IMG/VR virus record: IMGVR_UViG_3300007072_000033
Span: 1-31,070 of that record
Length of the DNA stretch: 31,070 nucleotides
Origin: a virus
Direction: 5' to 3' (one strand)
Each line of letters opens with the position of its first letter. Position 1 is the first letter of the stretch. The notes below the pieces were generated by a model. That model did not search any database, had not been told where the DNA came from, and was given only the letters and a program-made list of their open reading frames with translations. A program made the translations under genes and the position numbers. Below are positions 2,664 through 28,270 of this stretch, in pieces.

Positions 2664-4529
2664 ATGAGTGATAACATAAAACCAGATGTACAAAAATCAT
2701 TAAGTCAATTAAAAGAACGAATTAAAAATCGTGCTAATAAATATAATTTATCTCCTGAAATGTGTACATCTCCAACACATGTTGATGGTGATGATTTATT
2801 TTTATATGGTCCACCGATTAGTCCAAGAGAATTTATAGAATCACCAGAATTTGGTAATAATAGCCAAAGACGGGTTGTTTATCCTTGGGTAGCAGATGTA
2901 TTAACAGAAATCTTTAGCGGTAAATACTATGCACCAAAATATCAAACTGCCGCTATTGTTGCCGCAAAGGGTTCTGGTAAATCCTATTTATCTGGTTGGG
3001 CATTGGCATATCTTTGGTACTGGTATCTAAATTTTAAAGATTTCGGTGCTTACCTACGAAACTCTCAAGGATTAAATTATGATAGTGCACAAACAACCGC
3101 ATTTATCATGATGGCACAAACTACAACACAGGCAAGACGAGTTGTATTTGATTATACTACTAAAGCTATGAAAGAAGTTAAATTCATTCGTGATCATGAA
3201 TTAATGCCTGATCCTAAAGCAGTAAAAGAACTACGATTTAATATTTGGGACGAAGCATTTAGACGAGATTTTACAAAATTACTGATTTTACCGGGAAATT
3301 CTAGTCAATCATTCACTTTAGGCTATAATATTTTTGCTGGCGTTATTGACGAGGCTACAAACTGGAAAGAAAAATCGTCTGATCCAGCAGAAGACCTATT
3401 TAATGAAATGCGACAGCGACAATTTTCACGATTTGGTAATAATGGATTAATTCTATTAATTTCATCCGCTAACATTGACGATGATTACGTAGAACGATTA
3501 GAAGAAGAATCATTAGAAAATCCAAGCACATATTTTAAACGATTGTCTCTATATGATTGTAAACCTGAATATAAAAATTGTGAACGATTTGATATTAATA
3601 TAAAACGCGAAAGAGCAGACGGTACAATTGAAGAAATTACATTACACCCACCAATTCAACTTAAACCATTATATGACAATCACTTAACTCAGACTTTACG
3701 TGACGTGGAATCTATTCCTTCAGTGGCCGGTCAACCATTCTACCCAGATTATATGTTATTACTTTCTCGTATTAATCATTCTCGTCAAGACCCCGCACCC
3801 GATGCTGGTAAAGACAAACCGGAAGGTCCAATGGATGTTTATACAAAACTACCACCGTGGTTCAGGGCTATTGGTGATGCTGAATATCATATTCATATAG
3901 ACTTGGCAAAAGGTACAACGGCTAATCACTGTGGTTGTGGTCTTGCTATGTGTCATAAACAAGCACATCCAACTTTTGGATATGTTATTGTGATGGATTT
4001 AGCAGTTAGATTTAAAACACCAAAGGGCAAAGAATTAAACATAGGTGAATTATTGGAATTTGTAAAATTACTTAAAACTAGTAAAGGATTTAATATTAAA
4101 AAAGTTACATTTGATAAATGGAATAGTTTACAGCCAATTCAAACAGTAAATGGTTGGAATATGGGTATAATTGCTGAAGAATTGTCTGTTGGCTACAAAG
4201 AACATACATATCTTAAAACACTTATTAATGTGGGTCAATTTGACTTTTATGAAGATCAAAATTTAATCTATGAGTTAAAACGTTTAGAGGATTACCAAAC
4301 ATTCGTAGATCATGCTCCCGGTGCATTTAAGGATGAAGCAGATTCCGTAGCAGGGGCAGCATATAATGCAGCAGAACTTACCGAGTCAAAAGAAATTATA
4401 AAACCCCGTGCCATATGTGGTGCGTTAGTCAGTCGAAGTGGAAAAACTTTCCTGAATGGTGGTATGAGTGGGCCTAATTACAGAAGTCCATTACCAAATT
4501 TAGGCAAGTATAGACAAAATGCATTTTAA
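2664..4529 (+). CDS. terL: Terminase large subunit (DNA-packaging ATPase/nuclease)
   Basis: A 621-residue packaging motor protein that would drive DNA into the prohead and cut the concatemer. The N-terminal ATPase has a P-loop at residues 100-107 (AAKGSGKS), a Walker B with catalytic acid at 224-230 (FAGVIDE), and a coupling-type motif LLISSAN at 264-270. The C-terminal RNase H-like nuclease shows the expected spaced acids: D413 in HIHIDLAKG, D445 in VIVMDLAV, D484 in VTFDKWNS, and D557/D560 in FKDEADSVAG. Length is normal for the family. The start ATG 2664 has an AAAGGAAAA site upstream. No small terminase is evident next to it, and the portal gene is about 21 kb downstream, an unusual separation. 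The stop is followed at once by a promoter. Confidence 0.93.
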   Translation: MSDNIKPDVQKSLSQLKERIKNRANKYNLSPEMCTSPTHVDGDDLFLYGPPISPREFIESPEFGNNSQRRVVYPWVADVLTEIFSGKYYAPKYQTAAIVAAKGSGKSYLSGWALAYLWYWYLNFKDFGAYLRNSQGLNYDSAQTTAFIMMAQTTTQARRVVFDYTTKAMKEVKFIRDHELMPDPKAVKELRFNIWDEAFRRDFTKLLILPGNSSQSFTLGYNIFAGVIDEATNWKEKSSDPAEDLFNEMRQRQFSRFGNNGLILLISSANIDDDYVERLEEESLENPSTYFKRLSLYDCKPEYKNCERFDINIKRERADGTIEEITLHPPIQLKPLYDNHLTQTLRDVESIPSVAGQPFYPDYMLLLSRINHSRQDPAPDAGKDKPEGPMDVYTKLPPWFRAIGDAEYHIHIDLAKGTTANHCGCGLAMCHKQAHPTFGYVIVMDLAVRFKTPKGKELNIGELLEFVKLLKTSKGFNIKKVTFDKWNSLQPIQTVNGWNMGIIAEELSVGYKEHTYLKTLINVGQFDFYEDQNLIYELKRLEDYQTFVDHAPGAFKDEADSVAGAAYNAAELTESKEIIKPRAICGALVSRSGKTFLNGGMSGPNYRSPLPNLGKYRQNAF

Positions 4530-9221: not shown

Positions 9222-9260
9222 GATTATATCATAGTAGAAGGACTCATAGGAGATAAGAAT

Positions 9261-9563
9261 TTGGACGGTGAAATTAATATAGCCCAAAAAGTAGAAAAAA
9301 CACAAGTTTGCCGTGTTTGTGGTGAAATAAAATCTTGTGATGAAATGTATCATTGGCCTTGTAAACATGGTGGAAAATTAAATAGAAATATTGGTACATG
9401 TAAAATTTGTCAAAAGAAAAAAAGAAGAAATTATTATAATAATAACAAAGAACAGATAATTAGCTATAATCATCAAAGATATAAAGATCAAAAAGAAGAA
9501 ATACTAGAAAAACAAAAAGAATATAATAATAAACACAAAGAACAAATAAATAAAAAAAAATAA
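9261..9563 (+). CDS. N-terminal part of a split HNH endonuclease (zinc finger plus basic linker)
   Basis: Starts at TTG 9261 with AGGAG at 9248-9252, a good 8-base spacing. The 100 residues open with a CxxC...CxxC finger (C19, C22 in CRVCGEIKSCDEMY, then CKICQKKKRR), followed by a lysine-rich helix with repeated Y-x-N/K-x-K units. This arrangement is common at the N-terminus of phage HNH endonucleases. The frame ends at TAA 9561-9563, directly after a run of nine A bases (9552-9560). If one A is skipped the frame continues into the HNH part (INKKNKIYRDNNKDKKALMN). The two pieces therefore look like one gene, disrupted, mis-sequenced or joined by slippage. Confidence 0.7.
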   Translation: MDGEINIAQKVEKTQVCRVCGEIKSCDEMYHWPCKHGGKLNRNIGTCKICQKKKRRNYYNNNKEQIISYNHQRYKDQKEEILEKQKEYNNKHKEQINKKK

Positions 9564-13818: not shown

Positions 13819-13846
13819 TTGACAAACTGAGTTGAATCATTACAAT
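13819..13846 (+). promoter_or_regulatory. Sigma-70-type promoter P4
   Basis: TTGACA at 13819-13824, TACAAT at 13841-13846, spacer 16. It sits in the 72-base gap before the DUF932-like gene, and its predicted start near 13853 rules out the ATG at 13852 as the working start codon. Confidence 0.82.
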
Positions 13847-15003: not shown

Positions 15004-15555
15004 ATGGCAGAGAATGAGTTGGTTGTGGTTGTGGCAGATGTTCAGAATCTTTATCATGCAGCAAAGACATTCGGGGGAGGGAAAAAAGTAAATTATAAGC
15101 TGTTGATGCAAAAGATTTTGAATGGTCGTAAAGGTGGTATTTGTAAGGCGTATGCAGCACACAAGGATTATAAAGATTCCAAACGTTTTTATAATTCTTT
15201 ACGTGCAGCAGGCTTTGAAGTCGTTAGTAAGCGGATTATTACAAAGGTAGAGAATGGACGAAAACGACTCGTGCCACGCTATTTTGAAGTTGAACTTGCT
15301 ACTGATGTTATGGATGCTGCTATTAGTGATGAAAATGTAAAGACTGTTGTTCTTTGTACGGGTAACGGTTCTTACTCTTATCTCCTTGAACGTCTTAAGG
15401 AGTTAGGAGTTAACGTAGAGGTTTGGTGTTTTGATAAAGCAACAGCAGAAAGTCTGAAAGAACGAAGTACGTTCCATGAAATTCCTGCTGAATGTTTAAT
15501 GTCTGCACAAGAAGCAGAAAAGGTTGAAGAAAATGCCAGTTCCACAGGCACCTAG
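15004..15555 (+). CDS. NYN-domain (LabA/PIN-like) protein with degenerate active site
   Basis: 183 residues from ATG 15004, behind a GAGGAA site. The Rossmann-like NYN pattern is visible: VVVVADVQNLYHA with D12 and N15, FEVELATDVMDAAI with E95 and D101, and a later strand TVVLCTGNGSYSYLLERLKE followed by LGVNVEVWCF. NYN proteins are metal-dependent ribonucleases related to PIN domains. Here the usual SGDGDF-type motif reads TGNGSY, so both aspartates are replaced (N121, S123), and the usual D of the middle motif is E95. It may bind RNA without cutting, or cut by a modified site. It ends with an acidic tail overlapping the next gene by 23 bases. Confidence 0.72.
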   Translation: MAENELVVVVADVQNLYHAAKTFGGGKKVNYKLLMQKILNGRKGGICKAYAAHKDYKDSKRFYNSLRAAGFEVVSKRIITKVENGRKRLVPRYFEVELATDVMDAAISDENVKTVVLCTGNGSYSYLLERLKELGVNVEVWCFDKATAESLKERSTFHEIPAECLMSAQEAEKVEENASSTGT

Positions 15556-16729: not shown

Positions 16730-17236
16730 ATGGCTAGAGTTTACCAAACACGTAATGGTGAGTTTTTTGATTTGTCAATAGATCAACTGAAAGAAGAGTT
16801 GGCTGTTGTTTCCAAGGAGTTGTCTGCTATTAAGAAAGAACAGAAGACAAATAAGACAGAGGAAAATGAAGCAAAGCGTAAAGAGTTGAATAACAAGCGT
16901 ATTCGCATTTATGCTCGTATGCGAAAGCTGGATTACAAGGCTTCTGAATTCCGTGGTGGCAAGAATCCTGCCAAGGTTGAACCCATTGTGTCTCCTGAGA
17001 CTCAGGCTAAGTTGGATGAAATTGCCAAGCAGAAAGAAGCAGAAGATGCAAAAACCAAGCAGGAAATTACTGCTGACCATGCATTAGAACCTGAGAAGCG
17101 TACTTCTCAGCTTGAAGAGAAAAAAGATGAACAGCCAGTAGTTCAGTCAGTTGGTACTACAGGTACTTTAATTGTTTCAAATAAAAATTCGGATCAAAAT
17201 GCAAACAAGAGAATTATACTAAGTTTAAAACAGTAA
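16730..17236 (+). CDS. Coiled-coil protein, 168 residues
   Basis: Start placed at ATG 16730, with AGAAGGAG upstream. An earlier ATG at 16706 lies in the previous gene. After MARVYQTRNGEFFDLSIDQL, residues 20-80 form a long charged coiled coil (EELAVVSKELSAIKKEQK and on). A K/E-rich middle and a low-complexity tail follow, with a short strand at the end (NKRIILSLKQ). I do not recognise a family. It ends in TAATG with the glycosyltransferase gene, so the two are tightly linked. Confidence 0.72.
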   Translation: MARVYQTRNGEFFDLSIDQLKEELAVVSKELSAIKKEQKTNKTEENEAKRKELNNKRIRIYARMRKLDYKASEFRGGKNPAKVEPIVSPETQAKLDEIAKQKEAEDAKTKQEITADHALEPEKRTSQLEEKKDEQPVVQSVGTTGTLIVSNKNSDQNANKRIILSLKQ

Positions 17237-18174
17237 TGAAAATAGCAATTGTTAGCACATGGAATGAGTGTTGTGGCATTGCAGAATACACTAAGGATTT
17301 AGTGTATGGTCTGCGAGAGAAAGGCCACAGTGTTCATGTATTTGCTAATTTTCCAAAATTAAAAGCTGAACCAGATGAAGAATTTGTAACAAGGTGCTTT
17401 CATGTACCTTATTTAGATAATATACATGAAACAGATATTTCATTTGTTGAACAGTTATTACAATATGATATTGTACATTTCCAGTTTGAAACCAGTTTAT
17501 ATCATCCAGCTTGGTTTCCAAATTTGGTGAAGGAACTTTTTGGCAAAGTTCCAATTGTATTCACAATGCATTCATCTGGAATCTGGCCTAATTTTGATCA
17601 GGGATTTGTTTCACGATATATAACTCATGAGCCTATGCCTTGGTATTCAAATTCTGCTGTAATTCCAATGGGTATAAAGTTTTATGATAATACTACTGTT
17701 GGAAATCCTAAGTATATAGTTAGCTTTGGCTTAGGACGTAATAATGATGATTTTGTTAGAAAAGCTATAACTGGCACAGAAATAGAGTTTTATACCACGT
17801 ATGGTCACCACAAATGGCTGAGTAAACAAGACCTTGTGAAGGAAATACAAAGAGCATTTTCCGTTAGTTTGATTTACCCACCTGTTGGAGCATCTGTTAG
17901 TTCTTCTGCTGCAAATCTTGCATTAGGTTGTCATCGCGTTCTTTTCTGTTCTCCTACCAATTGGTTTAAACATGTAAACCATTATCCGGCTGTGTATTCT
18001 GTTGATACAACAGAACGAATGAAAGAAATTATTACAGATATTGCAGAATCAAATGATTATCAATCAGATTTATTACACGAAATTGCTTCTCGTAAGGATT
18101 ATATCTGTAATGAGGGACGGGATTACGATACTTTCGTTAACCGTCATATTACAGTTTATAAAAATTTGTTGTAA
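17236..18174 (+). CDS. GT-B fold glycosyltransferase (GT4-like)
   Basis: 312 residues beginning MKIAIVSTWNECCGIAEYTK, matching the CGIaeYt acceptor-side start of GT4-like enzymes, followed by G-H-x-V-x-V-F (GHSVHVFANFP). YDIVHFQFETSLYH and VPIVFTMHSSGIWPN are typical of the N-terminal Rossmann domain. In the C-terminal domain, residues ANLALGCHRVLFCSPTNWFK stand where donor-binding residues lie, although the classical E-x7-E pair is not clear. It should transfer a nucleotide-activated sugar. Target could be phage DNA, a virion protein or a host surface molecule. No sugar-nucleotide synthesis genes are in the window. It overlaps the coiled-coil gene by one base. Confidence 0.8.
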   Translation: MKIAIVSTWNECCGIAEYTKDLVYGLREKGHSVHVFANFPKLKAEPDEEFVTRCFHVPYLDNIHETDISFVEQLLQYDIVHFQFETSLYHPAWFPNLVKELFGKVPIVFTMHSSGIWPNFDQGFVSRYITHEPMPWYSNSAVIPMGIKFYDNTTVGNPKYIVSFGLGRNNDDFVRKAITGTEIEFYTTYGHHKWLSKQDLVKEIQRAFSVSLIYPPVGASVSSSAANLALGCHRVLFCSPTNWFKHVNHYPAVYSVDTTERMKEIITDIAESNDYQSDLLHEIASRKDYICNEGRDYDTFVNRHITVYKNLL

Positions 18175-18226
18175 TTTCTCTCAGAGTTAATGATTATAGA
18201 TATTAGAGGATGGTTGTAATTTCTCT
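18168..18226 (+). repeat. 14-base direct repeat flanking the end of the glycosyltransferase gene
   Basis: GTTGTAATTTCTCT occurs at 18168-18181 and again at 18213-18226. The first copy includes the last codons and stop of the glycosyltransferase gene, the second is in the leader of the next gene. The 45-base unit between copy starts suggests a small duplication or recombination event. Confidence 0.7.
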
Positions 18227-18553: not shown

Positions 18554-19645
18554 ATGCGTTTGGTTACTTCCAAATCTCGTGTTGATGCATTTAGTCTCAT
18601 TACTGGACAAGAGCCTGAAGCTGCACCAGCAGAAAAGAGCTATGCAGAGAAGCTAGAAGAAGAGACTGAGCATTATACCTCTCTTCGCAAAGCTTCACAG
18701 GAACAGTATCAGAACATTCCTACAGGTGAACGTGAAGTTCACAAAGAGGAATATTCTGACCAAGATCATGTTATTAAAGAAGCCTCCAAAGTTCTGAAAG
18801 ACAATCTTGATAAGATGATTGGCAAGGGTGGATATACGATTGCTCTTGATGAATTCCATCGAACAGCAGCACATAATTCTCCTGCCGATGATCAGGCAAT
18901 TACTGATAAATCATTGCTGGTTTTTGCCGTTAATTTCATGGTCGCAGGGACCAATGAACGGAAAACAGCAAAATTTGTAGTAGAGCATGATGAAGATTCA
19001 GCATTGTCTTCAGAACGATTAAAACTTGGTTCAGTGTTCTATGATAAGTACGATAATGAATACAAACTTTCAGCTAAAGCGGTTGAGAATTTCTTAGCAG
19101 GAGATAATGAACAGATGAAGAATAGCGTTGAACAACCCATTGCATACTTTAATGCCGAAGTCGATGGTTACGAAGCCGTAGATGCACCAGCAGGTTCCCA
19201 TGTGGTTGCTGCTCGTCTTCGGGAAGCCGGTTTTGATGTGACAGAAGAGTATGTAGATGCGACGAATGACCCTAAACGGTTTGGCCGTCTTTGTTACATG
19301 GTAGACGTACCTCTTGATAAGATGGATGCATTTAAGAAGGTTTGTGCCATGAGTAATGATGAGTGGTTCAATCGTGGTAAAGATGCAAATTCTGCTTCAC
19401 CCGCTTCTCCTGATTTGTCAGGTGATAAATGGTTTGATCGTAGTAAAGATCAGGGAAACAGTGATGGGCGTGATTTGAACGATAACAAGACATGGTTTGA
19501 TCGTTCTTTGAACGTCAATGAAGCTAAGAATCCTTATGGAAGTGAGAAGGCACAGTTAGCTTCAGATGCCATGAAGAAAGATGCATCTAAAGCTAAGAAC
19601 GACGTTGCAAAGGCTATTGCAGACTTAAAAGACCTTTGCAAGTAG
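18554..19645 (+). CDS. Unknown 363-residue protein with three C-terminal WFxR repeats
   Basis: Starts at ATG 18554 behind an AGAGGA site. Residues 20-90 are acidic and helical. A central alpha/beta domain (about 90-265) includes LLVFAVNFMVAGTNERKTAK and SHVVAARLREAGFDVTEEYV. The tail carries three copies of a W-F-(D/N)-R-x-(K/L) motif at W271, W293 and W314, spaced 22 and 21 residues and joined by S/D/N-rich linkers, before a lysine-rich helix. I do not recognise the family. The repeats look like short linear binding motifs in a disordered tail, which is inference. The gene ends at TAG 19643-19645 and is followed by an intrinsic terminator. Confidence 0.75.
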   Translation: MRLVTSKSRVDAFSLITGQEPEAAPAEKSYAEKLEEETEHYTSLRKASQEQYQNIPTGEREVHKEEYSDQDHVIKEASKVLKDNLDKMIGKGGYTIALDEFHRTAAHNSPADDQAITDKSLLVFAVNFMVAGTNERKTAKFVVEHDEDSALSSERLKLGSVFYDKYDNEYKLSAKAVENFLAGDNEQMKNSVEQPIAYFNAEVDGYEAVDAPAGSHVVAARLREAGFDVTEEYVDATNDPKRFGRLCYMVDVPLDKMDAFKKVCAMSNDEWFNRGKDANSASPASPDLSGDKWFDRSKDQGNSDGRDLNDNKTWFDRSLNVNEAKNPYGSEKAQLASDAMKKDASKAKNDVAKAIADLKDLCK

Positions 19646-19672
19646 TTCTTATAAACTGCATTAGTTGAATTT

Positions 19673-19707
19673 AATACAGGGTGTCAAGAGCACCCTGTAT
19701 TTCTATT
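19673..19707 (+). terminator. Intrinsic (Rho-independent) terminator
   Basis: AATACAGGGTG (19673-19683) and CACCCTGTATT (19691-19701) form a perfect 11-base stem with a 7-base loop, followed by a T-rich stretch TCTATT. It lies in the 78-base gap after the WFxR-repeat gene and before the next ribosome site. The T tract is interrupted, so efficiency is uncertain. Confidence 0.85.
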
Positions 19708-19723
19708 CCAAGGAGAGTTTTTC

Positions 19724-20308
19724 ATGTCATGGTTGCAGAAATTAGCAGTTTTATTAAAAATTTCAGATCGAAGTGGTCAAGACCCTAACAGGATTTATAA
19801 TAGCAAAGAACCTAAACAAGACTATTCTCTAACTGAAAAAGATCCAAAAATTCTTAAAGATACTGTTGAGGATACTATTGTCTCTTCTGAACCAAGAAGT
19901 GACAAAATGTTAAATAGTGAGTCTCACGATGACACTAATGATGAAATTCTCAAGATGTTTTGGAATGAAGACCAGCAAGAGCATTTGTTCAATGAGCCTC
20001 TTGACAAGGTAAACGTTATTACAGATACGAATACGGTTAATCCTATAAATAAGCCACCTACCTATGACTTAGTGGGGTCTTCACAAGAAAACGAAGAAGA
20101 TAGAAAATTTAACTTGATTTCCAAGAAGGTTGATTGTATAATAACATTAGAAGAACTAGAGAAGGAAAATCCTACTCTGGCTGAATACTTGTCTAGTTTT
20201 GGAGTTAAGACATTAGACAAGACAGTAGTAGCTTCTACATACCATAAACTTTGTGTGGAAGCGGCTAGACAAGAAAAACCACTTTCAGAGGTTTTGAAAC
20301 GTGTTTAA
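19724..20308 (+). CDS. Unknown 194-residue protein upstream of sigma factor
   Basis: ATG 19724 has AAGGAGAG upstream, right after the terminator. The product opens with an amphipathic helix (MSWLQKLAVLLKISDRSG), then a long acidic, probably disordered middle, and a C-terminal helical part (ITLEELEKENPTLAEYLSSF to the end). No family is recognised. It overlaps the sigma-like gene by eight bases, so they are likely co-translated. An anti-sigma or partner role could be imagined from that coupling, but nothing in the sequence shows it. Confidence 0.7.
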   Translation: MSWLQKLAVLLKISDRSGQDPNRIYNSKEPKQDYSLTEKDPKILKDTVEDTIVSSEPRSDKMLNSESHDDTNDEILKMFWNEDQQEHLFNEPLDKVNVITDTNTVNPINKPPTYDLVGSSQENEEDRKFNLISKKVDCIITLEELEKENPTLAEYLSSFGVKTLDKTVVASTYHKLCVEAARQEKPLSEVLKRV

Positions 20309-21668
20309 AGTTATTGCCAATGAAGTGTTAGGAGAAGGGACTGTAATATTTTATCAAAATCCTGTTACAAACGATATCGTTTACAATATTGATGGTGTAG
20401 ACAATCAGAAATTGGTTAGTTGGCACGGAATTCGTGAGGGTGTGGTAGGGTTTCCAACTTGTATTAATCACATGGATTTATGGCTGAACAGTGTTTACCA
20501 TCGAAATGAGTTGGAAGGATTAGCTAAATTTAAAGACGAAAGTGACGATGCTTGGGATTATAAAGAGAGGGAGATTCTAGCAAAATTTGCTACGTGGCAA
20601 CGTGTAGCAATTTTTGGTAGAATTTCTGCTGACGGTGGTGTGTTACAATTTATTAATACTACTGGTAATATGGATAAGTCTAAAGAGATTATTGAACATA
20701 TGTTAAATAAGGGGTTGGTGGAAGAAGCAACTCATTTGTTTATTAATAATACTGATTTTGATACTGTGGGTAAATTTTTGTTGGTTAGTGCGCAATGTGC
20801 GCTTTTTGCGAGAGAACAAGAAAAGTTAGAAGGAGAAAGACCAGTGTTGACATCAAAACTGTTGATTGAAGCTCAAATGGAAGACGAGAAACAAGGTAAG
20901 CAGCAGCATACAGATGAACTTTTAAGTGTTCTTGAGCCATGGAGAGCATTAAAAGCTAAATTGAATGATCCCAATCTATCTGATGAACAGAAGGATGAAA
21001 TTAAGCAGCAGATGAAGGAAGTTTCTGCTCCTGTAATGAATTGGCTTTACGATGACTATTATCCATTAATTGTTCGTGAGGTTGCAAAATATACTAAAAA
21101 TTACAAAACACGTGAAGATGAATCTCCAATTGATTATTTTGCTCCTGCTGTTCTCACTGGCCTTACTAAGAGTTTTTTAAATAACTTTGATCCTTCCAGA
21201 GCAACAATTTCTACTTTCGTTGGTTCACAGGCTGGTGGTTTGGCTAAAAATATGTTAAATAAACAGCGCAGTCAAGATAAACAATATATGACCGTTGGGC
21301 CAGCTTTTGCTGACGATGACGGTGGTGCTGAAGCTGGTTCTGCTGGCGATGTGGCTGGTAGCAATGACCCTGTTGCGAATGTTACTGAGCCAATGTTTGG
21401 CGAAGGTCCACGTGAATCTTCCCCTTTGGAAAATGTGTTAGGTCCAGTAATTAAGCAAATTGAACCTGTTCTTGCACCAGATGAATTAGATATTGTTAAG
21501 AAATATTTTTACGATAATATGACTTTAGACCAGATTGGTAAAGAGCGTAATGTAACGCGAGAACGAATTCGTCAGATTATTCAGGGTATTATTCAAAAGT
21601 TACAAATTCCTGAAATAAAGCAACGTCTTGGTTTGGCTAAGAAGAAATTATTCTTGAGTATTAAGTAA
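20301..21668 (+). CDS. Sigma-70-like transcription factor with extra N-terminal domain
   Basis: 455 residues from GTG 20301, with AGAGG at 20287-20291. Sigma region 2 is visible at about 248-325: helix YPLIVREVAKYTKNYKT, a D-YF-x-x-A core helix, FDPSRATISTFVGSQAGGLA and NMLNKQR, matching the F-D-x-S-x-G-x-x-FSTY signature. Region 4 at about 385-437 is clear: TLDQIGKERNVTRERIRQII, the -35-binding helix-turn-helix. A G/A/D-rich linker (335-375) replaces region 3. Residues 1-180 form an unknown domain not normal for sigma factors. It would redirect host RNA polymerase to phage promoters, possibly the TTGACA-N16-TAYAAT set here. It is far larger than small phage sigma factors such as T4 gp55. Confidence 0.85.
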   Translation: MFKVIANEVLGEGTVIFYQNPVTNDIVYNIDGVDNQKLVSWHGIREGVVGFPTCINHMDLWLNSVYHRNELEGLAKFKDESDDAWDYKEREILAKFATWQRVAIFGRISADGGVLQFINTTGNMDKSKEIIEHMLNKGLVEEATHLFINNTDFDTVGKFLLVSAQCALFAREQEKLEGERPVLTSKLLIEAQMEDEKQGKQQHTDELLSVLEPWRALKAKLNDPNLSDEQKDEIKQQMKEVSAPVMNWLYDDYYPLIVREVAKYTKNYKTREDESPIDYFAPAVLTGLTKSFLNNFDPSRATISTFVGSQAGGLAKNMLNKQRSQDKQYMTVGPAFADDDGGAEAGSAGDVAGSNDPVANVTEPMFGEGPRESSPLENVLGPVIKQIEPVLAPDELDIVKKYFYDNMTLDQIGKERNVTRERIRQIIQGIIQKLQIPEIKQRLGLAKKKLFLSIK

Positions 21669-24507: not shown

Positions 24508-24576
24508 TAATTCAATATTTATCTTGCCCATTCTCGGATTATATTACTATGAGAGAGTCTTTGTGGAGCAAGATAA

Positions 24577-25314
24577 ATGCCAGCAAATGTTACAATAGCC
24601 CCTGCGCAACAGCAACAGATATTACAACAGCCTCAAACACCAACGCAAGATATTACACCGTCGATTGACATAGATTTGCCTGCCTATGAAGTTGTAGAAT
24701 CTTTTCTTCAGTGGTTAAACACTTATGATGATGGTCAATTTTCAAATGTTACAAGTCTAACAAATGATATTTATAATGAAATTGGTCGTGCCAGTACTTC
24801 TACCGAATTGTCAAATTTAATAGCAAAATATCAATATAATTTGAGGTATATGGGTAAACGTTTAAAGACGGCGTTTCCAAAAGTTTTTATGATGGTTGAT
24901 CGTGCCTTGAATAAGGTATTAGGACAAATTGAAGCTATGCAAGAACAGGCTGGTGGTATAATTCCTATTAAACGTAGTGCTAAACGTAAAACTGCACAAA
25001 CATTAAGTGGTGAATATAAACCACAAAGCCAAGCTCCCGGTACGACTTCTGTAAGTCCCCCTGATACCGTTGTGGAAAATCCTGTTGAAGATGTTAACAA
25101 GAATTTAGAGGTTGGAGATAATGTATTTCCTGAAGTTGCACAGGAAATGAATCAGGATGAGACATATAAGAATCGTGCAAAAACATATCTTACAAAAGGT
25201 CTGGATAATCTACTTAAGGTCCAAGATAAACCCGGTGGGCTACGGCAGTTAACAGAACAGTTAATGTGTATTGTTCGTAAGCTAGACAAACGTTACACTA
25301 GGCCAAAGGAATAA
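24577..25314 (+). CDS. Unknown 245-residue protein before portal
   Basis: ATG 24577 is preceded by GTGGAGCAAG. It begins with a Q/P-rich stretch (MPANVTIAPAQQQQILQQPQ), then a helical domain at about 35-130 (VVESFLQWLNTYDDGQFSNV, LKTAFPKVFMMVDRALNKVL), a K/S/P-rich linker (KRSAKRKTAQTL) and a helical C-terminus. No family is recognised. It sits between connector and portal with a three-base gap to the latter, so a head or packaging role is likely by context only. Confidence 0.7.
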   Translation: MPANVTIAPAQQQQILQQPQTPTQDITPSIDIDLPAYEVVESFLQWLNTYDDGQFSNVTSLTNDIYNEIGRASTSTELSNLIAKYQYNLRYMGKRLKTAFPKVFMMVDRALNKVLGQIEAMQEQAGGIIPIKRSAKRKTAQTLSGEYKPQSQAPGTTSVSPPDTVVENPVEDVNKNLEVGDNVFPEVAQEMNQDETYKNRAKTYLTKGLDNLLKVQDKPGGLRQLTEQLMCIVRKLDKRYTRPKE

Positions 25315-25317
25315 CCA

Positions 25318-27204
25318 GTGGCTAATCAAAATCGTAAGGCAACTCCGCAAGAGGCTGTGAGACAAGCAGTGATTGCATCCAACGGCAACAGAACACCAGA
25401 ACAAATGAATCAGAAAAGTACAAATAATAGTACTCTTATTTTAGGTGATAATATTAGTAAAGAATGGAGTAATATTGTTAAAGCTAAGAAAGTAAATATT
25501 CAAACCAAAGATCCATTACTTGAACGATTGAATCGTCAAGTTGGAACTTCTTCCGTCGTTGTTACTCGTGATCCGATTACAGGTGCGGGTAGATCATCCG
25601 GTAAATCAGGCATGGCACGTTCTGCTGTATCAGTAGACCGTGTTTATGATGTTCCATTTAGCCCATTCCGTAATAGGTTTGCTGTTGAACAGCCGATGAA
25701 TCGTATTGAAATGCTTCAACGCTTTCGATACTATTTCCGATATGAGCCTCTTGTTCGTGCCTCAATGGAATTGCACACTGAATTCCCATTGTCAACATTT
25801 GAATTAAAGCATCAAGACCCCATATTGAAAAGTGAATTTATGGACATGTGTGAGGACATTAATTTATTTGAATTCTTGCTAGATATGGTATTAGAGTATT
25901 GGTTAATTGGCGGTTGTGCAGTGTTTGGTATTTTTGACGACCCTAAACAACCTTGTTTGTGGAAGAAGTTTGTGTTGTTAAATCCTCTTTACGTGGAAAT
26001 TGAAAATTGTCCATTTACGGACGGTCGTTCAGAAGATCAGATGAAGTTACGGTTCGATGAACGTACTCGTGGTATTGTTGCCAATGGTCCACGTGATCCT
26101 AATACTGGTAAATTATATAATAGACTTCCAGCAGATATTATTGAGAGTATTAAGAATGGTGATGGAACTATGCCATTGAATAATATTCAGGCATCCTATT
26201 TCAAACGAAAAGGTAATTATTTTTCTCCATATGGTGAGTCTTTATTATTCTGTGTTTCTCATTTACTTGCATATCGTGATAAATTACGTGATTCATTGTA
26301 TTATACTTGTGATAGACATGCAACTCCTAGAGAAGTATGGAAGTTAGGTACGGATGCTCTTCCAGCGAGTGAAGAAGAAATAACAGCATTCCAATCGTTG
26401 TTAAGTCAAACTTATCTTGATCCAAACCAAGCTATTATCTGGAACCATGCATTGACACATGAGTTGATTGGTGCTGCTGATAAGATGCTTCCAGTGTCTC
26501 AGGAAATTACAAAAGTTGAAGAAGAAATGCTTATTGGTTTGATGTTGAATAAGGGTTTCCTTGATTCAGCATATGGTGCATATGCCAATATGTCAGTTGC
26601 ATTAGATGTTTTAATTTCTAGATATTTAACTTTACGTACACGAATTGAGCGTTGGATGAAGGATAATGTATTTGCTCCTATTTGTCGTATTCATAATATC
26701 TACAAGCCAACTCAGGCAGAATTGTCTCACAGAATTCGTATTAAACATTCTAACAAGCGTCCTTGGGTGCCTGAAATTGCGTGGTCTAAGAATGAACTTC
26801 GTGATACTAATCAGAAGATTCAGTTGCTCATGCAGTTCCGTGAGAAACTTGGCAAACCGGGATTCCCACGTGACAGGCTCTATGAAATGGTTGGTGAGAA
26901 CCCTGAAGTTATTCGTTCTCTTTGCCGCAAGGAACAGGCAGAACTTAAGAACGAGACACCTATGGGTGCCGCCCCTGTTCAAATGGGTGGTCCCGGTCTT
27001 GATCTTGGTGGTGGCATGGGCGGTGGTGGAGCACCACCATTAGGTACTGATCTTGGAATTGATATGAATACTGGTTTAGGTGGTGGTCCAGAGGTTGGTG
27101 CTCCTGCTGGTGGTGGTCCAATGTCAGTTGATGTCAATCAGTCTGTTGCACCACCTGAATCTGCGAATGCTGGTGCAGGGAATACTGGTAATATTGGAGT
27201 ATAG
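25318..27204 (+). CDS. Portal protein
   Basis: 628 residues from GTG 25318 (MANQNRKATPQEAV). Recognisable portal features: YFRYEPLVRASMELHTEFPL near residue 140, LDMVLEYWLIGGCAVFGIFDD (the conserved core strand), helices LLFCVSHLLAYRDKLRDSLY, MLIGLMLNKGFLD and a long RYLTLRTRIERWMKDNVFAP helix as in clip/stem regions of large-phage portals. It forms a dodecameric ring through which the terminase passes DNA. The C-terminal 80 residues are G/P-rich and probably disordered. Length is on the long side. The terminase is far upstream in this genome. No motif is missing that I can detect. Confidence 0.82.
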   Translation: MANQNRKATPQEAVRQAVIASNGNRTPEQMNQKSTNNSTLILGDNISKEWSNIVKAKKVNIQTKDPLLERLNRQVGTSSVVVTRDPITGAGRSSGKSGMARSAVSVDRVYDVPFSPFRNRFAVEQPMNRIEMLQRFRYYFRYEPLVRASMELHTEFPLSTFELKHQDPILKSEFMDMCEDINLFEFLLDMVLEYWLIGGCAVFGIFDDPKQPCLWKKFVLLNPLYVEIENCPFTDGRSEDQMKLRFDERTRGIVANGPRDPNTGKLYNRLPADIIESIKNGDGTMPLNNIQASYFKRKGNYFSPYGESLLFCVSHLLAYRDKLRDSLYYTCDRHATPREVWKLGTDALPASEEEITAFQSLLSQTYLDPNQAIIWNHALTHELIGAADKMLPVSQEITKVEEEMLIGLMLNKGFLDSAYGAYANMSVALDVLISRYLTLRTRIERWMKDNVFAPICRIHNIYKPTQAELSHRIRIKHSNKRPWVPEIAWSKNELRDTNQKIQLLMQFREKLGKPGFPRDRLYEMVGENPEVIRSLCRKEQAELKNETPMGAAPVQMGGPGLDLGGGMGGGGAPPLGTDLGIDMNTGLGGGPEVGAPAGGGPMSVDVNQSVAPPESANAGAGNTGNIGV

Positions 27205-28212: not shown

Positions 28213-28270
28213 ATTGTATTTTAAATTCTTTAAATAACGGTGATTATACTAATATGAGGGAGTGTGTATC

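Follow-up and report, generated by a model that had tools for sequence, protein, structure and literature searches.

The gene at 20301-21668 raises the question of what a phage would do with a sigma factor carrying a long additional N-terminal part, and which promoters such a factor could serve. The window (the whole 31,070-nucleotide stretch analysed here) corresponds, reversed and with 1 mismatch, to positions 103689-134758 of the contig IMGVR_UViG_3300022554_000002 (194,473 bases), and is a fragment of the genome of a large bacterial virus. The gene (P0001, + strand) encodes 455 aa from a GTG start with AGAGG upstream; its ORF shares 8 bases with the 3′ end of the ORF before it and directly adjoins the one after it. 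It sits between the terminase gene (2664-4529, matched by 299 phage records) and the portal gene (25318-27204), whose best named relative is gp14 of phage G (29.9% over 63% of the query).

The assignment of P0001 to the sigma-70 family, with core binding and initiation as predicted functions, is based on profile and structural comparisons. The NCBIfam profile TIGR02937 (sigma70-ECF) covers residues 249-435 with 49.9 bits (cut-off 42.9), and Pfam PF04545 (Sigma70_r4) matches residues 390-435 with 40.8 bits (cut-off 24.1); region 2 alone stays under the Pfam cut-off (PF04542, E 0.049). Two PHROG sigma families also match, phrog_1740 at 219-435 and phrog_351 at 378-437. The AF2 single-sequence model of the whole protein (mean pLDDT 45.6, against 37.3 for a separate model of residues 1-200) is confident for residues ∼200-325, with block values of about 52-88 for sigma 1.2/2. 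Residues 199-328 (20895-21284) were aligned (VIA-align) to regions 1.2/2 of RpoD, SigA, SigE and WhiG, and among the PDB matches listed for the model 50 out of 50 are sigma factors (Z about 8-9 over 111-117 residues; e.g. 7mkd_L with Z 9.0 and rmsd 3.3 Å over 111 residues); Foldseek with the same model returned 13 matches at E≤0.001, to RNAP-sigma chains. The preliminary description of this DNA had proposed a sigma-70-like factor with regions 2 and 4, and had named as the contrary outcome a profile search missing both; this did not happen, as TIGR02937 spans the two regions, and the model matches over residues 199-328 point the same way.

The order of parts is an N-terminal extension (residues 1-198), sigma 1.2/2 (199-328), an acidic linker (329-375) and sigma 4 (376-455). 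The linker (21285-21425), located by composition and in the AF2 model at the place of region 3, is rich in D, G and A, as had been described, and carries a net charge of -8 over 47 residues. Region 4 (21426-21665) reads TLDQIGKERNVTRERIRQI versus TLEEVGKQFNVTRERIRQI in RpoD, and in the alignment to RpoD/SigA the recognition helix VTRERIRQI is the same as in RpoD. Region 2.3-2.4 (ISTFVGSQAGGLAKNML), without the RpoD aromatic pair, is by eye presumably ECF-like.

The 194-kb contig (283 genes from a simple codon-score caller, which also set the gene starts) yielded no RNA polymerase large subunit (Rpb1_1, Rpb2_6), nor did any of 5 records, with controls detected in 14 out of 14 cases; the phage would therefore have to use the host core. 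P0001 is the only region-4 match over the cut-off within this contig; a 194-aa protein upstream of the sigma gene with a weak sigma-like match (E 0.035) was treated as chance. The gene run before P0001 includes a NYN-domain protein (15004-15555) and a glycosyltransferase family 4 protein (17236-18174). A 12-bp hairpin (19673-19701, + strand), recognized by folding energy (-24.4 kcal/mol and z of -3.8 for 19640-19725), lies just 5′ of the gene at 19724, which overlaps the sigma gene start. The T-run scan accepted no T run after this hairpin, and Rfam gave no match in the window.

Two promoter-like motif classes are present in the 194-kb contig, the promoter role of their sites being predicted from sequence. 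The first is of host type: enriched intergenic words read CTTGACA and TGTATAAT. There are 110 TTGAC/TATAAT pairs, 59 of them intergenic and no more than 200 nt from a start on the same strand, with a spacer of 16 or 17 in 58/59. None of these 59 falls in the head-gene block at 90-120.5 kb. The nearest such site upstream of the sigma gene on the same strand is TTGACA-16-TACAAT at 13819-13846.

The second class, GATTATA-N7-RRRR, emerged from 29 late-side gaps at 26-135 kb, chosen for the absence of TTGAC[AT]. GATTATA occurs in 9/29 of them versus 1.1 expected, a modest excess by itself given 16,000 7-mers. The purine block at +14 to +17 keeps a fixed spacing to GATTATA while the distance to the gene start varies, and no conserved -35 element was found at these sites. 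Over the 146 upstream segments of the contig the full pattern occurs 15 times in sense and once in antisense orientation, as compared with a mean of 0.25 and a maximum of 4 in 300 dinucleotide shuffles. A scoring matrix built from 11 seeds (13 sense GATTATA sites, with 59906 and 86545 omitted) gave 16 matches of at least 14 bits, 14 of them upstream of a same-strand gene and 2 in coding sequence; coding-sequence matches of at least 12 bits are at shuffle level (block shuffles give 11.3 per genome at this threshold). Two high-scoring sites, 14451 and 181458, come from beyond the region used to find the motif, and both stand before isolated minus-strand genes amid plus-strand genes. Like the purine block and the sense bias, they support the motif independently of the initial excess. 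Seven of 14 second-class sites fall in the head-gene block, a figure that is not independent because the choice of region entered the motif search (the 0/59 for host-type sites is). The sites precede the portal operon, the head-protease operon and the operon with the sigma gene, the head maturation protease and portal genes being found downstream of them. Beyond the window end, the head maturation protease frame (L137:4-3033, - strand) carries an intein-like insert, its mid-part matching an endonuclease and an intein-bearing reductase family.

In the window GATTATA-N7-GRRR occurs four times versus 0.21 expected: at 18192-18209 (GATTATA-N7-GAGG, upstream of the gene run with the sigma gene), 24537-24554 (before the gene at 24577 and portal), 28242-28259 (before 28271/28593), all on the + strand, and at 20556-20573 inside the sigma coding sequence, where 12.0 bits is chance level by score. 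The motif scan placed a further, weaker second-class site (15.0 bits, + strand) at 9222-9239 before the gene at 9261. Judging by titles and opening lines of abstracts, the papers searched describe no GATTATA phage promoter motif of this kind.

It could be argued that GATTATA-N7-RRRR is an operator or an RNA-processing site of some other phage regulator. The motif is known from sequence alone, and its purine block could belong to a protein or RNA site. However, a TATA-type core followed after ∼7 nt by purines has the geometry of a promoter, and the sites stand where host-type sites are absent; we regard this explanation as unlikely, albeit one to be taken seriously.

The probable reading, in our judgment, is that P0001 is a late sigma acting on the host core, which reads the second class, raises its own level by positive feedback and is gated or tuned by its N-terminal extension. 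Early genes would carry host-type promoters. P0001 would bind the host RNA polymerase core, displace the host sigma and direct late transcription at the -35-less GATTATA-N7-RRRR sites before virion operons. Since the sigma gene lies downstream of both 13819 and 18192, read-through priming followed by feedback is allowed: early read-through from the host-type site 6.5 kb upstream could prime the gene, and the second-class site 2.1 kb upstream could then raise P0001. That P0001 reads this class, as well as the timing and the feedback, is what we infer. As the only region-4 match over the cut-off in the contig it is the natural reader, and second-class sites occur in the head block, where host-type sites are absent. 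Several points speak against this role: the RpoD recognition helix suits a TTGACA -35, which the second class does not have; no relative links P0001 with the GATTATA motif; and sites at about 147955 and 181458 of the contig lie in front of a transposase gene and of two HNH genes, so that not only virion genes are served. Mobile genes may thus have come to use late promoters.

The first of these objections leads to a competing assignment, by which P0001, alone or beside the host sigma, reads the CTTGACA-N16/17-TGTATAAT sites, and the GATTATA sites are read otherwise. Besides the RpoD-matching helix VTRERIRQI, it draws on the unusual tightness of the CTTGACA sites in consensus and spacer. These sites, however, suit the primary sigma found in most hosts. 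They stand in non-head regions, and region 2.3-2.4 of P0001 is, by eye, presumably not of the RpoD kind. We consider this assignment quite unlikely. The second promoter class, which the preliminary description had missed, would instead give P0001 its likely job.

The remaining question concerns the N-terminal extension (20301-20894). Its presence and its lack of a recognized domain had both been pointed out and hold, with a length nearer 198 residues than the 'about 180' given. The codon score of frame 0 is positive in every 50-codon block of residues 1-198 and that of the other frames is negative; the exception within P0001 is frame 2, slightly positive in block 201-250. The extension has a net charge of -12 and is probably folded, judging from its acidic sequence with 53/198 I/L/V/M residues; a beta hairpin and then helices are weakly predicted, with pLDDT of 25-37 for the models of the extension. 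Residues 1-198 match no profile in Pfam, PHROGs or NCBIfam, including the region 1.1 profiles of Pfam and NCBIfam, and a sequence search of PDB returned nothing below E 0.28. The halves of the extension found nothing below E 0.6 among the ORFs of all compared loci (phmmer/tblastn searches), and P0001 found nothing at E≤1 by tblastn in 50,697 phage records. Scans of viral and genome contigs with the whole protein, its N-part and its C-part brought up no contig other than the 194-kb one, which belongs to the same virus. Because such scans respond only to 8 residues matched exactly, more distant relatives may exist. The N-part was found in 0/50 whole records, a set that contained no positive control. 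At the sensitivity of the searches used, the extension is an orphan in sequence, and the papers searched, judging by titles and abstract openings, describe no phage sigma with such an N-terminal fusion.

The preliminary description had suggested that the added domain may regulate polymerase binding or couple transcription to another process; among the features observed, only its acidity bears on a particular function. Our best guess is an acidic gating or docking domain, which would most likely tune P0001 by blocking premature DNA binding or by docking a phage partner. A more specific and rather improbable version is a co-activator fused in one chain to a -35-independent late sigma, where it would take over what gp33 and the sliding clamp do as separate proteins in T4: by docking a replication or packaging protein it would restrict late-gene expression to DNA undergoing replication or packaging, and the intact RpoD-like sigma 4 would also permit host-type promoters. 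Still less probable is that the active form is a shorter sigma of about 263 aa, begun at ATG 193 (20877), perhaps from an internal start signal. This is the usual size, and the GATTATA-N7-GRRR match at 20556 lies within the N-terminal coding part. That match, however, reaches a level also reached by block shuffles, ATG 193 is without a clear ribosome site, whereas AGAGG precedes the GTG start, and the extension has an open frame 0 that, unlike the other frames, keeps a coding score over its whole length.

Among other phages, phrog_1740 matches 36/49 related records. The 21 matches spanning both sigma regions (those that begin at profile position ≤100 and reach ≥190; lengths of stop-to-stop frames) comprise 19 frames of 197-346 aa, one of 2002 aa and P0001 with 456, in keeping with the earlier remark on the small size of most phage sigma factors. 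A 454-aa frame in Rctr197k, considered as a same-sized relative, is not sigma-like by eye. The 2002-aa frame (L142:7057-13062, - strand; contig IMGVR_UViG_3300009503_000022), from a portal relative, is a single frame with DNA ligase (41-214), mCpol (784-899), GGDEF (1113-1255) and LigD primase-polymerase (1372-1525) domains, then a sigma part with regions 2 and 4 both under cut-off (E 2.9e-4 and 2.6e-3) and a LigD phosphoesterase (1783-1881). HKEAQIGK occurs at 522 and 768, between domains; these repeats are perhaps processing sites, and a packaged polyprotein is possible. Before another related portal, a 426-aa frame (L035:1528-2805, + strand) resembles by eye sigma 2-4 with a cysteine/histidine C-terminal tail, with no Pfam match.

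By annotation, phage G places its sigma gp3 between terminase gp1 and portal gp14, and Tunturi_5 does likewise. Homologues of gp3 of 181-233 aa occur in seven IMG/VR loci (L023, L024, L026, L028 and L031-L033). Since the gp3 profile misses P0001 (-0.9 bits, no detectable homology), it is position only that suggests common descent. The available part of PMC7824862 describes group 3 jumbo phages, with phage G in group 3.2, as devoid of sigma factors; contrary to it, phage G gp3 (L003:2659-3285) is annotated as sigma with region 4 over the cut-off. Tunturi_5 gp3 (L006:3240-4220) is annotated as a sigma factor, yet has no PF04545 match at E≤1. Eight phage G-type loci revealed no clear shared late motif; TATACTC is enriched in such loci (ATACTC in 10 segments, 2.1 expected), and GATTATA-N7-GRR occurs once each in L031 and L024. 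Sporulation-like sigmas that manipulate the host do occur in phages (PMC9429907, in the part available), but that P0001 is one of them, dispensable for phage late genes, is the least probable reading of all, given its position between terminase and portal, as annotated in phage G and Tunturi_5, and the second promoter-like class that its own phage genome has to match.

Group 4 (ECF) sigmas consist of sigma 2 and sigma 4 without region 3. P0001 resembles them in its TIGR02937 match over the cut-off and in the 47-residue linker at the place of region 3, but its 198-residue extension and region 1.2-like helix go beyond that plan, and its -35 helix is RpoD-like. In primary sigma factors, region 1.1 is an acidic N-terminal part before region 1.2; the extension of P0001 is likewise acidic and so placed, but has about 198 residues and no sequence match to region 1.1. 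The genes of Bacillus phage G gp3 (208 aa) and of its IMG/VR homologues likewise have a terminase on one side and a related portal (27-30% identity) on the other, but these proteins lack the extension. As in the late-sigma type of T4 gp55 and phiEco32 gp36, a second promoter-like class lies near late genes, its role being predicted. T4 gp55, with gp33 and gp45, likewise uses the host core at late promoters without a -35, but sigma 2 and sigma 4 functions are split between gp55 and gp33, while P0001 is one chain with an N-extension (PMC2988020, in the part available). In the available part of PMC8948821, phages 7-11 and phiEco32 resemble the scheme proposed here in having a phage sigma, host core and late promoters unlike the host type. 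The 7-11 sigma gene SaPh711_gp47 is proposed to receive early read-through transcription as well as transcription from a late promoter, as we propose for P0001, and a potential regulatory hairpin precedes it too, as the hairpin at 19673-19701 precedes the gene just upstream of P0001. The phiEco32 promoters, with a single -10-like element and the start 6-8 bp on, resemble the candidate GATTATA sites of P0001, which have no -35, whereas the 7-11 promoters are bipartite; phiEco32 gp36 is without region 4, present in P0001, and both phages are of an unrelated type, with no such N-extension mentioned in that part of the paper. Phage late sigmas that work with the host polymerase are an already known kind; new are the orphan extension, the pairing of an RpoD-like sigma 4 with a -35-less class, and the phage G-like genome. 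Phage G-type jumbo phages have been described as lacking sigma factors (PMC7824862, in the part available), yet a sigma gene adjoins the packaging genes both in phage G, by annotation, and here, and a testable promoter-factor pair with a fused domain offers a route to the late-gene switch on host polymerase in such phages.
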